Source of the DNA: Chromatiaceae bacterium
Lineage (GTDB): Bacteria > Pseudomonadota > Gammaproteobacteria > Chromatiales > Chromatiaceae
Assembly (NCBI GenBank): GCA_019356535.1
Contig: CP037918.1
Span: forward strand, 1,644,315-1,708,314
Length of the DNA stretch: 64,000 bases
Reading direction: 5' to 3'
Positions 6,205-43,348 of the stretch are shown piece by piece; position 1 is the first letter of the stretch; each line of letters starts with the position of its first letter. The notes beneath the pieces were generated by a model. The model searched no databases, was not told the origin of the DNA, and saw only the letters and a program-made list of their open reading frames with translations. The position numbers and the translations under genes are program-made.

Positions 6205-8079
6205 TCATTCGAATTCGTCGACCTTGTGGCCGGCCATGACCTTGCGAATATTACTGTTCATCCGTCTCTCGACATAGAACTCGCAAGTCTTCTCCAGCTC
6301 CTCGATGGCCCGTTTGATCGCGTCGGCGTCCGTGGCCGTCTCCGCGGAACGCCGCAGCGACGCCAGCACCTGCTCTATCCTTTGACGTTCCGCGTCGTCG
6401 AGCAGCTCATCGCCGTCGGCCGCCAACGCGGCCTGCAGGGCCTCGATCACGCGCGCGGCCTCGACCCGTTGCTCGGCCAGCGCACGGGCAACCATGTCCT
6501 CGCCGGCGTGTTCGATGGACTCCTTGAGCATGCCGGCGATTTCCTCGTCGGTCAGGCCGTAGGAGGGCTTGACCTCGACACTGGCCTTCACGCCCTGGCT
6601 GAGCTCCTCCGCCTCGACGTGCAGCAGGCCGTCGGCATCTACCGAGAAGGTGACGCGGATACGCGCCGCGCCGGCCACCATGGGCGGGATGCCGCGCAAC
6701 TCGAAGCGCGCCAGGGAGCGGTTATCGGCAACCAGTTCGCGCTCGCCCTGCACCACGTGGATGGCCATCGCAGTCTGACCGTCCTTGAAGGTGGTGAATT
6801 CCTGGGCACGCGCCACCGGGATGGTGGTATTGCGCGGGATGATCTTCTCCACCAGGCCACCCATGGTCTCGATGCCCAGCGACAGCGGGATCACATCCAG
6901 CAGCAACATCTCGTCTTCGGGCTTGTTGCCCGCCAGCACGTCAGCCTGCAGGGCTGCGCCGATGGCCACCACCTTGTCGGGGTCGATGTCCACCAGCGGC
7001 TCGGTGCCGAAGAACTCGCCGACCTTCTCACGCACGCGCAGCGCGCGGGTGGAGCCGCCGACCATGACGACGTCTTCGATGTCCTCGGGGCGCACCCCGG
7101 CGTCACGCAGGGCGCGGCGGCAGGCGGTGATGGTCTTGCGGATCAGAGGATCGACCAGCTGGTTGAAGGTGTCGCGGTCGAGCTGACCTGCCCAGCGGCT
7201 ACCGTCGGGCCGAGCCACCTCGATCTCGACCGATTCCTGCTCGGACAGCGCCTCCTTGGCCGCGCGCGCCTTGTCCATCAGTCCGCGCAGCAGACCCGGA
7301 GAAGCCTCGCGCCCGATGCCGGCCTGTTCGAGCATCCACTCGGCAATGGCGCGGTCGAAATCGTCGCCGCCCAGGGCGGAGTCGCCGCCGGTAGCCAGCA
7401 CCTCGAACACGCCCTTGTTGAGCCGCAGGATGGAGATATCAAAGGTACCGCCGCCCAAGTCGTAGATGGCGTGCACCCCTTCGGCGCCACGGTCCAGGCC
7501 GTAGGCCACGGCTGCGGCAGTCGGCTCGTTGAGCAGACGGAAGACGTGCAATCCCGCCAGCTTCGCCGCATCCTTGGTAGCCTGGCGCTGAGCGTCATCG
7601 AAATAGGCCGGCACCGTAATCACCACCCCGCTCAGCGGACCACCCAAGGTTGCCTCGGCGCGCCTCGCCAGCACCTTGAGGATCTCTGCCGAGACCTCCA
7701 CCGGGCTCACGTCGCCAGCCACGGTGCGGATGCGCGGCACCGCGCTGTCAGTATCGACAAACTCGTAGGGCAAGCGGTCAGCCAGGGTCTTGACGTCTTC
7801 TATGCCGCGACCGATCAGGCGCTTCACCGAGGCGATAATATTGTGCGGGTCTTCGGCCGCCGCGGCGCGCGCCGCCTCGCCGACGATCACCCCTTGCGGG
7901 GTGTAGCGCACCACCGAGGGCAACAGGTGACGCCCCTGCTCATCGGGCAGGGTCTCGGCCACGCCGCTGCGCACCGTGGCAACCAGCGAATTGGTGGTGC
8001 CCAGATCGATGCCCGCCGCCAGCCTGTGTTCGTGCGGGGCAGTCGACTGGCCGGGTTCGGCGATTTGCAGAAATGCCAT
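6205..8079 (-). CDS. hscA: Fe-S protein assembly chaperone HscA
   Basis: HscA is the DnaK-like ATPase that releases the cluster from IscU after recognising its LPPVK motif. The 624-residue protein has the Hsp70 ATPase signatures ([12 protein letters not shown] near residue 25, [29 protein letters not shown]) followed by the substrate-binding domain ([14 protein letters not shown] onward). It is shorter than DnaK, as HscA usually is. Its ATG overlaps the hscB stop codon by one base (TGATG). Confidence 0.96.
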
Positions 8080-8624
8080 CAGTAGGATTCTTCCATTTCG
8101 GCCTCGAGCGCCTCGGCCTCGTTGTACAACTTGTTCAGAAACTGCATGCGCGAGACGGTCTCGCGCGCCTCGTTCAGCGAGTCGGGCGTGGCCGCCTCGA
8201 ACTGTACCGCCAGCTGCGCCACCTCCTGGTCGATCATCTGCCGGATCTCACGCATCAGCGCGTCGAGTTCGGCCTCGGGGTCTGCCGCGTCCCGCACCCC
8301 GGCCAGCGCCTCGCGCAGCTCCATCTGCTGCATCAGGAAGCTGGCATCGCGCGTGGTGGCTGTCTCACCGTCGCTGTCGATACCGTGCAACTGCAACAGG
8401 TATTGGGCGCGACGCAGCGGATCGCGCAGGGTTTCGTAGGCCTCGTTGACCCGGGTCGCCTGTTGCAACGCCAGGCGCTGCTCCTGATCGGAGGCGCTGG
8501 CGAAGCGATCGGGGTGCACCGCCCGCTGCAGCTCGCGGTAGCGCTCGGCCAGTGCCTGGCTGTCGAGCACAAAGCCCACCGGCAGACCGAACAGTTCGAA
8601 ATGGTTGCTGGACAGATTGATCAT
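8079..8624 (-). CDS. hscB: Co-chaperone HscB (J-domain protein)
   Basis: HscB is the J-domain partner that brings IscU to HscA and stimulates its ATPase. From the ATG at 8624 the product has 181 residues, starting [15 protein letters not shown], with the J-domain HPD motif in RAVHPDRF (about residues 37-42) and a C-terminal helical domain. The open frame extends upstream to 8783, but that extension overlaps iscA, has low-complexity composition and no family match. The ATG at 8624 has AGAGAGG in front of it. Confidence 0.94.
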
Positions 8625-39174: not shown

Positions 39175-39828
39175 TCAAAAAGGCACCGGGCTCTCGACCT
39201 GCACCGCCTCGCCACTCGCGGGGTGCTCGAAGGCCAGTGCCTGGGCATGCAGCAGCAAGCGCTCTGCGGCCAGCCGTGCCGCGGCATCGCCATACAGCTC
39301 GTCACCCAGTATGGGATGGCCCAGCGCCAGCATGTGTACGCGCAACTGGTGGCTGCGGCCGGTGAGTGGCAGCAACTCGACCCGAGTAAACCGGTGTTCG
39401 GCATCGCGCGCCAGCACACGCCAGTGCGTGAGCGCCGGCCGACCCAGCCGGGCATCCACCTTCTGGCGCGGCCGGTTGGGCCAGTCGGTGATCAGCGGCA
39501 AGTCGACCTCGCCCTCATCCTGCATCACCCGACCCGCCACCACCGCCAGATAACGCTTGTGCACTCGACGCTCGCCGAACAGGCGTCCCATGCGCGCCTG
39601 GGTCTCGCGATCCAGCGCGAACAGCACCAGCCCCGAGGTCGCCATGTCCAGCCGGTGCACCACCAGGGCCTGGGGGAAGTGTCGCTGCACGCGCTTCCAG
39701 AGACAGTCCTGCTTGTCCTCGCCACGCCCGGGCACGCTGAGCAGCCCGGCCGGCTTGTCCACGATCAGCAGGTGCTCGTCCTGGTAGCGAATCGCCAACC
39801 CTTCGTCGGGCGGAGGCTCATAGTGCAT
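39175..39828 (-). CDS. rluA: RluA-family pseudouridine synthase
   Basis: The 217-residue protein has the RluA signature HRLDMATSGLVLFA with the catalytic aspartate, plus the motif I region LLIVDKPAGLLSVPGRG and the KRYLAVV and LTGRSHQLRVHMLALGHPILGD segments. There is no S4 domain, which fits the short RluA group that modifies 23S rRNA U746 and tRNA U32 in E. coli. The ATG at 39828 lies inside the end of the antiporter gene (11-base overlap), indicating coupling. Confidence 0.87.
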   Translation of the reverse strand: MHYEPPPDEGLAIRYQDEHLLIVDKPAGLLSVPGRGEDKQDCLWKRVQRHFPQALVVHRLDMATSGLVLFALDRETQARMGRLFGERRVHKRYLAVVAGRVMQDEGEVDLPLITDWPNRPRQKVDARLGRPALTHWRVLARDAEHRFTRVELLPLTGRSHQLRVHMLALGHPILGDELYGDAAARLAAERLLLHAQALAFEHPASGEAVQVESPVPF

Positions 39829-41536
39829 GCTCGTCTCCCGGCTCGGCCTGGCGCAACACGGAATAGTCGCTGGCCCGCACCTCGGCCACCGCACGCTCGC
39901 TGCTCTGATCGTCCACGCCCGCCAGCAGCAACAGGGCGCGGGCATACATCAGGCTGCTCTCGAGCACCGAATCGAAGATGGTCACGTTCGGCGGCAAGTA
40001 TTCCTCGTCGCCTACCCAGCCGTGCTCGGTATGCACCAGTACCGGCAGCTCGGGCCGCAGGCGCCGCGCCTGGGCGATGATGCGCCGCGCCGCCGGCGGA
40101 TCGTGGAAGGTGATCGCCAACGCCCGCGCCTGTGGCAGTCTCGCCAGCTCGAGCAGAACCGCATTGCCGGCATCTCCGAACAGCACCGTGTGCCCGTTGG
40201 CGCGGCATTCGCGCACCAGCCGGGCATCGCGGTCGATCGCCAGCACCGGCACGTTGCGCTCCTCGAGCACCGCGGTCACGCCCTGCCCCAGCGCACCATA
40301 GCCGCAGATCACCACGTGATCGTGCAGTTCGCCCACCGTCTCCGGCAGGTTCTCGGGCTCGCCCGGGACAGAGGCGCCATCGCCGTGCCGCCTGACCAGG
40401 CGGCCGTTGAAACGGATCAGCAAGGGCGCGAGCAACATGCTGAGGATCAGTCCCGCCAGCACCGGTTGCAGCAGCACGCTGTCCACCAGCGCCAGCAGCA
40501 TCACCTGGGAGACCAGCAACAGGCCGAACTCGCCACCATGCGCCAGCACCGCCGCGACCCGCAGCGCATCGCCAGGCGTATGCCCGAACAGCCGGACCGG
40601 CCCCCAGATCAACAGCCCCTTGAGCAGCACCAACCCGGCCACCACCGCCAGCACCCACAGCGGCTGGCGCAGCAGGACGCCCGGATCGAGCTGCATGCCG
40701 ATACTGATGAAGAACACCCCCAGCATGAGGTCGCGGAAAGGCCGGATATCGGCCTCCACCTGGTGCCGGAAATGCGTCTCGCCCAGCAGCATACCGGCCA
40801 TGAAGGCACCCAGAGTGGCCGACAGACCGGCGGCCATGGACAGGCCCGCCGCCGCCAGTGCCAGCGACAGCACCGTCAGCATGAACAGCTCGAGCGAGTG
40901 GGTATCAGCCACCCAGTGCAGGACACGCGGCAACAGCTTGCGCCCCAGTACCGCCAGCGTGATGAACACCAGCAGGGCCTTGAGCAGGGTGATGCCCAGC
41001 AGGCCGCCGAAAGAGCCGCCGTCACTCCCCAGCAGCGGCAGCAGCACCAGAAAGGGCACTGCGGCGATGTCCTGGAACAGCAGCACTGCCGTGGCGGCCT
41101 GGCCGTGCACGGTACGCAACTCCCCCTGCTCACCGAGCTGCTTGAGCGCGATGGCGGTCGAGGACATGGCGAAGGCACCGCCCAGGATCACCGCGAAGGC
41201 CGGCGATACCCCTGCAAGGATGAAGCCGCCGGCGAACACCGCGGTGGTGAGCACCACCTGGCTCCCTCCCAGCCCCAGCACCAGGCGCCGTGAAGCGAGC
41301 AGGCGCGGCAGGGAGAACTCCAGGCCGATGGTAAACATCAGCAGCACCACGCCGACCTCGGCCAGTACGCGGATCGCTCCGGTATCGCCCAGCAGACCCA
41401 GACCCCAGGGGCCGAACACCAGCCCGGCCAGCAGGTATCCGACGATGGACGACAGACCCAGGCGATGGCACAGGGCCACCAGGCCGGCACTGCCGAGCAG
41501 CAGCAACATCAGGTGAAACAGCAGCTCATGTGTCAT
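39818..41536 (-). CDS. CPA2 cation:proton antiporter with TrkA-N domain (KefB/YbaL-like)
   Basis: The 572-residue protein has about 12-13 membrane helices of the CPA2 fold (SSIVGYLLAGLVFGPWGLGLL, then LTTAVFAGGFILAG, MSSTAIALKQLGEQGEL, HGGEFGLLL) followed by a cytoplasmic Rossmann NAD-binding TrkA-N domain (HDHVVICGYGALGQGVTAVLEE, about residue 415 on). It probably moves K+ or Na+ against protons under nucleotide control. No TrkA-C domain follows. Its 3-prime end overlaps the pseudouridine synthase gene. Confidence 0.9.
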   Translation of the reverse strand: MTHELLFHLMLLLLGSAGLVALCHRLGLSSIVGYLLAGLVFGPWGLGLLGDTGAIRVLAEVGVVLLMFTIGLEFSLPRLLASRRLVLGLGGSQVVLTTAVFAGGFILAGVSPAFAVILGGAFAMSSTAIALKQLGEQGELRTVHGQAATAVLLFQDIAAVPFLVLLPLLGSDGGSFGGLLGITLLKALLVFITLAVLGRKLLPRVLHWVADTHSLELFMLTVLSLALAAAGLSMAAGLSATLGAFMAGMLLGETHFRHQVEADIRPFRDLMLGVFFISIGMQLDPGVLLRQPLWVLAVVAGLVLLKGLLIWGPVRLFGHTPGDALRVAAVLAHGGEFGLLLVSQVMLLALVDSVLLQPVLAGLILSMLLAPLLIRFNGRLVRRHGDGASVPGEPENLPETVGELHDHVVICGYGALGQGVTAVLEERNVPVLAIDRDARLVRECRANGHTVLFGDAGNAVLLELARLPQARALAITFHDPPAARRIIAQARRLRPELPVLVHTEHGWVGDEEYLPPNVTIFDSVLESSLMYARALLLLAGVDDQSSERAVAEVRASDYSVLRQAEPGDEHAL

Positions 41537-41727
41537 CTGACTAGGATAGATCGTGCCAACACCAGGGACGAAGCGTTCTTACTGGCGTCGCCCCAGAGGC
41601 TTTTCCAAGGTACACCGCGAGAAAACGACAATACCACGCGGTCACCGTCACTCTGCATTGAAAAGCCGCCGGCCGCCCTCACTGTGAAGATCGGGCCAAG
41701 AAAATCGGAACACACGGAGGATCCGAC

Positions 41728-42258
41728 ATGAACACCGGTGACGAAAGACTCGAAAGCATCCTCGCGCGACTCGCTCCGGTGGTGCTGCCCCCGGCGGATT
41801 TCCCGCCGGCACAGATCGTGCGCGACACCCCACGCGAGGAGCTGCGCGATCGCATCCGCAAGAATGCCGAGGAGGTCGACATCGAGCTGACCGAGGCGCA
41901 CTGGGAGGTCATCGACTTTCTGCTCGACTTCTATACTCACTGTTGTGAGACCCATGCCCCACGCTATACCGACATGCGGACCTACTGGCGCTACATCGAC
42001 TGCCTGAAAGATCCGCAGTGCGAATCGGAAATGGAAGGCAGCAAGACCAAAACCTGCCAGTACGGCCAGCTCAGCGCCACCGAGGCCACCAGTGCCTACA
42101 GGGTGTATCGCGTGCTGCTCAAGGCCTTTGCCGACAAGGGCGGAAAGAAACACCTCTACGAACTGTTCCCCTACGGACCGGTATTCACCATTCACCTGCT
42201 CGCCGGCCTGCCCCGCCTGCGGCACGACGTGGACCCGCATTTCGGCACGGCCTACTGA
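41728..42258 (+). CDS. Divergent DsrC/TusE-family protein lacking C-terminal cysteines
   Basis: DsrC proteins are sulfur carriers that use one or two C-terminal cysteines. This 176-residue product keeps the family core, ELTEAHWEVIDFLLDFY (about 53-69) and KHLYELFPYGPVFTIHLLAGLPR (141-163), but ends DVDPHFGTAY without either cysteine, so normal persulfide transfer seems impossible. Instead it has cysteines at 72, 73, 92, 98 and 110 in a middle insertion. Proteins like this have been viewed as regulatory relatives of DsrC. GGAGG precedes the ATG. The HPF/sigma-like gene begins 40 bases downstream. Confidence 0.8.
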   Translation: MNTGDERLESILARLAPVVLPPADFPPAQIVRDTPREELRDRIRKNAEEVDIELTEAHWEVIDFLLDFYTHCCETHAPRYTDMRTYWRYIDCLKDPQCESEMEGSKTKTCQYGQLSATEATSAYRVYRVLLKAFADKGGKKHLYELFPYGPVFTIHLLAGLPRLRHDVDPHFGTAY

Positions 42259-42298: not shown

Positions 42299-43348
42299 AT
42301 GAAGATCGACATTACCTGGCGCAACCTGCCCAAGGACAGCCACGAAACCATCCGCCACACGGTGGAAACCCTGGCCGCGCGCCACCTGAAACCCGCACTG
42401 GAGGCCTTCGAGCACGCCTTGCCGCGCCTGCGCCTGACGCTGGAGAAACGCAAGCTGGATTACCGCGTGACCACGCGCATCCAGTTGCCCCCGCGCAAGG
42501 TGCTGGTCGCCCAGTCCAGCGATCCTTCGCTGGACAAGGCAATGCACAACGCGCTGGAGGAGCTGGCGCGGCAGGCCGCACGCCATCGCGCCCACATCAG
42601 CCACCAGGACGACTGGAAACGCAAGGCGCGCCGACGCCGCCTGCGCGAGCTCAAGGCCCGCCTGGGTGCGCTGACGCCCGAGGCACAGCAGCAGGTCGAG
42701 GTCTCGCTGGCCAGCCTGCTGCCCCGCCTCGAATCCTGGCTGCGCCACGAGCTGACCTACCTTCGCGCCAGCGGCCTGCTGGCCGAGGACTATCCCACGC
42801 TGGCCGACGTGCGCGACGAGATGTACGTGCGCATCCAGCGCCACTGGGACGAGGTGCCGCACGACGAAGACGGCCTGTACCGGGTGGCGATCCGCGTGAC
42901 CACCGAGATCCTCGAGGAAGAGACGCGGCGCCTGCGCACGGACGACGAACAACTGGTCTCGCTGGATGACGAGGTGCCCGAAGACGCCATGGACCAGGCC
43001 GAGGACATGGTCGGGGAGGAAGTCGGCGAGTTCTACCAGCCCGACGAGGATCTGCACGTCGAGGACCTGATCGCCGACACCGAGATCCCCGGCCCGGAAG
43101 AAGCCGCCCGGATCGAGGCCGTCGACGCCTGCTACGAACTGCTGGGCACCCTGCCCTCGCTGTGGCGGCGCGCGCTCACCCTGGTCCACCGGGAGGGCCT
43201 GGCACCCGAGGTGGTCGCAGGCCAGATCCTGGATATCGGTGAAGAGGAACTGCACCAGGTGCTGACCCTGGGCGAGCGCTTCCTGCGCGACCACCTCGCC
43301 GAGCGGGGCCTGGGGATCCAGGACGTGCCGACGCTGCTCGCACGTTAA
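42299..43348 (+). CDS. HPF/RaiA-like domain fused to sigma-70-like domain
   Basis: The 349-residue protein starts MKIDITWRNLPKDSHETIRH (GGAGG upstream). Residues 1-105 resemble a hibernation-promoting factor/RaiA domain (beta start, then PPRKVLVAQSSDPSLDKAMHNALEELARQ). After a basic linker, 143-212 resembles sigma region 2 (WLRHELTYLRASG, then TLADVRDEMYVRIQRHW). An acidic linker (213-270) leads to a segment like sigma region 4 (LLGTLPSLWRRALTLVHREGLAPEVVAGQIL, 281-311). The frame is open upstream to 42092, overlapping the DsrC-like gene. The role is unknown; a link between ribosome state and transcription is an inference. Confidence 0.72.
   Translation: MKIDITWRNLPKDSHETIRHTVETLAARHLKPALEAFEHALPRLRLTLEKRKLDYRVTTRIQLPPRKVLVAQSSDPSLDKAMHNALEELARQAARHRAHISHQDDWKRKARRRRLRELKARLGALTPEAQQQVEVSLASLLPRLESWLRHELTYLRASGLLAEDYPTLADVRDEMYVRIQRHWDEVPHDEDGLYRVAIRVTTEILEEETRRLRTDDEQLVSLDDEVPEDAMDQAEDMVGEEVGEFYQPDEDLHVEDLIADTEIPGPEEAARIEAVDACYELLGTLPSLWRRALTLVHREGLAPEVVAGQILDIGEEELHQVLTLGERFLRDHLAERGLGIQDVPTLLAR

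Follow-up and report, generated by a model that had tools for sequence, protein, structure and literature searches.

A chromosomal homologue of tLST Orf11 that joins an HPF/RaiA domain to a degenerate sigma-like module

The stretch of DNA analysed here (the window) comprises 64,000 nucleotides from a Chromatiaceae bacterium. On its forward strand, an uninterrupted open reading frame (ORF) runs from an ATG at 42299 to a stop codon at 43346-43348, with a good ribosome-binding site, GGAGG, whose end lies 9 bases upstream of the start codon. The ORF is a real protein-coding gene, present as a single copy in its own genome. An earlier note had proposed that its product fuses a ribosome-hibernation-like domain to sigma-70-like regions. 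A DsrC-like gene precedes the fusion gene on the same strand, with 40 bases between the two; it is kept upstream of the fusion in the family loci L008 and L009, and in L017 it lies about 3 kb off. A heat-shock-like promoter candidate sits upstream of the DsrC-like/fusion pair, and the aligned position in L008 and L009 reads CTTGAAT-14-CCCCACCA. In a simple scan for heat-shock-like sites, the L008 and L009 copies scored above the threshold and those of the window and L002 below it, and the whole window holds six such sites on its two strands. The candidate is a lead only. Scans for sigma-70 promoters and terminators near the fusion gene were uninformative. The features of the locus and of the encoded protein are collected in Table 1.

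Table 1. Genes and protein features at the fusion locus, in window coordinates
Feature	Coordinates	Strand	Basis or remark
KefB-like cation/proton antiporter, divergent neighbour, similar to tLST KefB	39818..41536	-	similarity
Weak heat-shock-like promoter candidate, ATTGAAA-12-CCCTCACT	41657..41683	+	motif scan
DsrC/TusE-like gene	41728..42258	+	partial profile match (~28 residues)
HPF-sigma-like fusion gene (tLST Orf11 homologue)	42299..43348	+	349 aa
HPF/RaiA (S30AE) domain, residues 1-101, strand-helix-strand-strand-strand-helix	42299..42601	+	profile, fold, residues
Very basic connector helix, residues 102-123, (W/Y)KRKARRxRLRxLK	42602..42667	+	charge, residue counts
ECF-like sigma region 2, residues 127-219, DxxDE replacing DxxQE in region 2.2	42677..42955	+	hhalign, fold
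Conserved acidic linker, residues 219-262, EFYQPDE...EDLI motif	42953..43084	+	charge, alignment
Sigma region 4-like helices, residues 266-337, recognition helix without the usual Arg	43094..43309	+	profile, fold, residues
CitMHS/TrkA_C transporter, convergent neighbour, kept in L008 and L009	43494..45581	-	similarity

The N-terminal part belongs to HPF/RaiA by profile as well as by fold. With hmmscan, Pfam S30AE matched the window protein at E 2.4e-4 and 22.2 bits, just missing the cut-off of 23.7, and in the search of the genome the same protein reached 24.2 bits (E 1.1e-4), above that cut-off. A genome scan recovered 29 further fusion loci; together with the window protein they form a family of 30 sequences, whose alignment (A2) was used for profiles and residue counts. 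S30AE matched 26 of these 30 at E<=0.1 (best 1.4e-11). Searched against the PDB, the 30-sequence profile found HPF/YfiA (best 6.5e-5) over a stretch separate from its sigma match. Profile-profile comparison (hhalign) of the N-terminal half with 28 canonical HPFs gave P=3.3e-6, as against 0.2-0.5 for the sigma parts in the same test. The AlphaFold2 model of the whole protein has a mean pLDDT of 83.4 and a pTM of 0.58. All 13 Foldseek rows at E<=0.001 were of the HPF type (HPF match 6.6e-5), and VIA-align on the Foldseek matches superposed residues 1-100 on HPF with Z 15.0 (92 residues, rmsd 1.4). Lys or Arg at HPF positions 66, 67, 91 and 95 is kept in 28-30 of the 30 members. The proposal that residues 1-105 are HPF/RaiA is supported by these data, with the boundary drawn at 101 in the model. 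The same genome also encodes a separate canonical HPF (S30AE 7.4e-31 vs 1.1e-4 for the fusion protein), and eight sigma-type matches in it lie above the Sigma70_r2 cut-off.

The sigma-like half emerged through the family profile. Alone, the window protein had no sigma match in Pfam and only chance matches in the PDB; the hits to TFAM and S7 in this single-sequence search were taken as such. The 30-sequence profile matched ECF sigma-H/RpoE structures (8.9e-7 to 3e-6) over region 4, and single family members matched Sigma70_r4_2 (13 of 30) and PhyR_sigma-like (11 of 30, best 2.2e-7) at E<=0.1. When aligned by hhalign with five ECF sigmas, the C-terminal half scored P=3.7e-9, region 4 alone likewise 3.7e-9 and region 2 alone 0.042; the N-terminal half used as control gave 0.31. 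Sigma rows in Foldseek start at E 0.006, and the best VIA-align match of the C-terminal half is the ECF RpoE/NepR complex 5uxx (Z 14.2 over 149 residues, 128-341). Region 2 is the weakest-supported part of the protein. Folded separately, it reached a pLDDT of 87.8, and its 16 best structural matches, led by 5uxx, are sigma factor entries or complexes with Z 9.3 to 6.0, followed by a first unrelated row at Z 5.5, in a range (Z below about 13) that according to the tool's own warning can mean little for helical bundles. Two of the matched chains, 9n9q_C and 6dxo_A, are presumably the sigma chains of their entries. Independent support for the identity of region 2 comes from stand-alone sigma-like proteins that have the same region 2 and linker: in single comparisons, L086 matched the window protein over this part at E 4e-5, and L083 matched the fusion protein L026 at 2e-9. 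These stand-alone proteins themselves hit Sigma70_r2 at 1.9e-4 and 0.0014, both below the cut-off.

One member, from Paraburkholderia (L084), passes both Pfam cut-offs on its own (S30AE 24.7 vs 23.7 bits, Sigma70_r4_2 28.8 vs 25.7) and matches TIGR02937 over residues 169-332 at 7.6e-8, below that model's cut-off. Taken together, the family profile, the profile-profile comparisons with swapped halves as controls, the fold and the double Pfam match of L084 rule out chance similarity of the halves. Two genes joined by a frame or assembly artefact can likewise be rejected, since the homologues at the 29 further loci have the same domain order and are open through both halves. The segments 143-212 and 275-335, proposed earlier as sigma regions 2 and 4 joined by an acidic linker, correspond closely to our boundaries. 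It is near certain that the 349-residue protein consists of an HPF/RaiA domain followed by a degenerate sigma-like module.

Its degeneracy is seen at the residues through which ECF sigmas work. The four Arg positions of the RpoE recognition helix are basic in 9, 0, 3 and 4 of the 30 members, and this helix has a mean charge of -1.9 (range -4 to +2), where five ECF sigmas encoded by the same genome have +1 to +4. In region 2.2 all 30 members have Asp in place of the Gln of the DxxQE core-contact motif; the Asp and Glu close by persist in 28 and 29 members, respectively. Regions 2.3/2.4 carry a mean charge of -0.4 (-4 to +4) against 0 to +4 in the five ECF sigmas, whose segments were picked by eye. 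Regions 2 and 4 of an ECF sigma are both present; its basic -35 recognition helix and its DxxQE core-contact motif are not. The name sigma factor used in the earlier note is therefore too strong, although the two-domain reading and the sigma fold stand, and the polymerase-contact helix asked for there is present in the fold, yet altered in its residues. Recognition of a -35 element looks to be lost in the window protein, to judge by these residues. DNA contact is not plainly gone everywhere: residue 199 in region 2.4, an Asn in RpoE, is Lys or Arg in 28 of 30 members, and L084 retains two Arg in its recognition helix. The Paraburkholderia copies retain more of the sigma signature than other members, so the extent to which DNA contact has been lost varies within the family.

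Other segments are strongly conserved. The connector helix has a family mean charge of +6.7, with Arg108 present in all 30 members and Lys or Arg at positions 107, 108, 109, 111, 112 and 114 in 25-30 of 30. The linker is acidic in every member (mean charge -13.5, range -9 to -19), which bears out the acidic linker between the sigma regions described before, and many of the invariant positions of the family fall in the region 2.2 helix and in this linker.

The strongest new point concerns the identity of a known gene: a member of the fusion family turns out to be orf11, an unassigned gene of the tLST, a mobile heat-resistance island. The plasmids examined from E. coli and K. pneumoniae have the fusion annotated as a hypothetical protein between hdeD-GI and trx-GI, and this position is that of orf11 in the published tLST gene order (PMC8290217). 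Orf11 aligns with the window protein over about 350 residues, has the same domain order and is 37% identical to it (E 3e-53, from a search of a small local database). The window itself is not a tLST. Its fusion gene is chromosomal, adjoins a DsrC-like gene and does not lie between hdeD and trx, and the tLST references found only the KefB-type gene in the 64 kb. Automatic annotation has already noticed the sigma half, as 1 of 60 E. coli rows listed in RefSeq bears the name RNA polymerase sigma factor, the remaining ones being called hypothetical; a label for the HPF half was absent among the records listed. Text searches of open-licence literature listed no paper that mentions a fusion of HPF and sigma or assigns one of these domains to orf11, and no characterised protein of this type came up in them; the earlier note, too, was aware of none.

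By title, most of the loci are gammaproteobacterial metagenome-assembled genomes (MAGs). Alphaproteobacterial carriers are Oceanicella, Paracoccus, Pseudotabrizicola and two MAGs, and further ones are Thiomonas and Thermomonas, together with a Chloroflexota MAG and a Kocuria contig, both of which may be misbinned or foreign. In the 4.8-kb contig NZ_BJNW01000035.1 of Kocuria varians (L023), YfdX2, HdeD and Orf11 homologues lie together, Orf11 with 47% identity to that of E. coli; these copies represent transfer or contamination. Among sampled genomes, the profile matched 17 of the 369 from the class (in one of these, G193, over region 4 only) and 5 of the 398 from the phylum, both counts including the window's own genome. 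Of 72,556 plasmid records, 300 encode a protein relative, which in 271 of them spans 80% or more of the query. The gene was matched by DNA in 152 of 5426 E. coli genomes, in 144 with at least 80% of it; the laboratory strain E. coli C is among the carriers. In some E. coli records the match is confined to the first 580 bases or to the last 429, which fits the published split of orf11 in LHR2 (PMC5383660); the tLST2 copies are split. A tLST-type gene was found within 1.5 kb at 14 of the 29 family loci (15 of 29 when all DNA of each locus was counted) and at none of 39 control loci, the surroundings of canonical HPF and sigma genes. The 29 loci are not all independent, as they include near-relatives of the window, three of which match through KefB, and short contigs. 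When the window was divided into tiles, 2 of 16 had a tLST-type match, both from its own KefB. Two Paraburkholderia copies lie near three Hsp20 genes, one of them followed by groES-groL-dnaK; on plasmid pSYMBR3459 (L084:7706-17394), three Hsp20 genes, GroES, GroEL and DnaK surround the fusion gene.

Relatives without an HPF half were also found. L083 (1372-2088, +; a genome of the same phylum) and L086 (5971-6642, +; an Azospirillum plasmid) are HPF-less sigma-like proteins with the linker motif in the form E(F/W)YQPD, and a third such protein with the same motif, on a Phenylobacterium plasmid (L087, ~7955-8600, +), carries an in-frame stop. The L086 and L087 loci lie among CbpA/CbpM, DUF5335, thioredoxin, Hsp20, Lon and DegQ-type genes. 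The three proteins make up a wider family of stress-island sigma-like proteins, two of them (L086 and L087) on alphaproteobacterial plasmids. Another sigma-like relative with the linker motif (L082:1375-2112, -) stands beside an ORF that looks HdeD-like by eye; its frame runs into the contig end, so that it may or may not have carried an HPF. In a tree, 31 of 32 fused rows group together at 90/86, a support under the tool's mark, while L084, the stand-alone rows (among them L082, with its 5' end off the contig) and RpoE form long branches. With 29 further loci, the fusion constitutes an old family, which may or may not have arisen only once.

The gene is under purifying selection in most pairs compared. 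Whole-gene dN/dS was 0.08-0.34 in eight of nine pairs, the window lineage included. The exception is the orf11 pair of E. coli and Klebsiella (L037/L038), with 0.76-0.77 from 11 synonymous and 27 other differences, compared with 0.09-0.43 for eight other tLST genes in the same pair. Region 4 alone gave 0.72 and 0.53 in the two pairs of the window and 0.05 in L008/L009; in the window lineage it evolves faster than the rest of the fusion gene. With respect to phenotype, single deletions in E. coli MG1655 lacZ::LHR showed 7 of 13 genes to be needed for heat or chlorine resistance; orf11 is not among the deletions reported to reduce either resistance, and its loss left lipid oxidation unchanged (PMC8407380). 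The abstract of a proteomics study gives 11 expressed LHR proteins, one of them a hypothetical protein without a name (PMC7010813), which we infer to be Orf11. These results are easier to reconcile with a part in recovery or dormancy than with one in resistance to killing, or else with a gene decaying in that host group.

Among known systems, HPF/RaiA (YfiA) has the N-terminal fold and a basic surface in common with the window protein, which instead of ending there goes on into sigma-like regions. The ECF sigmas RpoE, EcfG and SigW have like folds of regions 2 and 4; the family differs from them in its altered contact residues and its long conserved acidic linker. PhyR resembles the window protein in its degenerate ECF sigma domain and differs in its receiver domain, in place of which HPF is found; no response-regulator match was obtained for the window protein at E<=10. 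A literal PhyR-NepR system is ruled out in this genome. NepR was absent from all 28 genomes searched, a set that took in this genome but none of the alphaproteobacterial members, with Caulobacter as a positive control, so that the partner must be another.

How such a protein might act can be put forward with graded confidence. The reading we lean to, tentatively and at somewhat short of even confidence, is that of a stress-linked, HPF/RaiA-type ribosome-binding factor whose degenerate ECF-sigma module is a PhyR-like sigma mimic and not a promoter-reading sigma. It builds on the two folds, the largely lost recognition-helix Arg, the kept basic residues of HPF and connector, the conserved acidic linker, the purifying selection in most pairs and the chaperone, protease and antiporter genes that often adjoin. 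The HPF part and the basic helix would bind ribosomes that are idle or damaged. On the transcription side, the sigma-like part would hold a partner, be it an anti-sigma factor or RNA polymerase through its beta' clamp; ribosome occupancy might thereby alter sigma availability or keep polymerase from working. Packed against the basic parts or into the polymerase cleft, the acidic linker would probably switch the state. That the C-terminal half best matches, in structure, an ECF sigma in complex with its anti-sigma (5uxx) counts for the mimic. So do the PhyR_sigma-like matches within the family, the HPF-less relatives with the same linker in stress clusters and the parallel between the lost Arg and PhyR, whose promoter- and core-contact regions "appear degenerated" in the words of a review (PMC8103513). 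Against it stand the missing resistance phenotype of the deletion, the split in tLST2, the weak constraint in enterobacteria, the weakly constrained region 4 of the window lineage, the absence of NepR from the genomes searched and the weak profile score of region 2 alone, along with the basic residue 199 and the Arg kept in L084.

Several of these observations can be read otherwise. A genuine ECF-type sigma, held on or released from ribosomes by HPF and transcribing the stress locus, would account for the two sigma regions standing in order, the retained acidic residues of region 2.2, the basic residue 199, the Arg and the sub-threshold TIGR02937 match of L084 and the sigma annotation of some relatives; we consider it unlikely, given the loss of recognition-helix Arg in most members, the acidic charge of that helix, the exchange of Gln for Asp throughout and the place of orf11 outside the seven genes reported as needed for resistance (PMC8407380). 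In another reading the protein is a hibernation factor only. Its sigma-like half would be a scaffold that pairs ribosomes or contacts chaperones and would take no part in transcription, much as long HPF uses its C-terminal domain to pair ribosomes. The loss of Arg, the conserved HPF half and basic connector and the neighbouring chaperones and proteases suit this reading. It is improbable in our judgement: many invariant positions lie in the linker and the region 2.2 helix, and L083 and L086 keep sigma parts and linker without HPF, which gives the sigma half a life of its own.

In a further reading, HPF would silence the ribosome and the sigma-like module with its linker would occupy core RNA polymerase and block initiation. 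The sigma finger sits between regions 2 and 4, where the strongly acidic linker is found here, and the acid residues of region 2.2 are kept; since the presumed core-contact Gln is altered, such a dual hibernation factor is rather remote. We hold it very improbable that the gene is a passenger decaying in mobile islands. The split of orf11 in tLST2, the weakly constrained enterobacterial pair, the similarly lax region 4 in the window's lineage, the Phenylobacterium relative with its in-frame stop and the lack of a reported resistance phenotype (PMC8407380) would agree with decay, but low whole-gene dN/dS in all pairs except one and full-length open homologues in several classes speak against it.

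The tie between ribosome state and transcription that the earlier note suggested is a plausible hypothesis. We regard it as possible, with only limited confidence, that the protein is a stress regulator which physically couples hibernating ribosomes to the transcription machinery in one chain, found on chromosomes and in a heat-resistance island spreading among enterobacteria. The occurrence of homologues in stress islands, one of them being tLST orf11, is a context that was not visible to the earlier note. The assignment provides orf11 of a much-studied heat- and chlorine-resistance island with a concrete, testable identity, and it points toward assays of recovery, dormancy and translation instead of kill curves. 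If the coupling is real, a single protein would link ribosome hibernation directly to sigma-based control of transcription.
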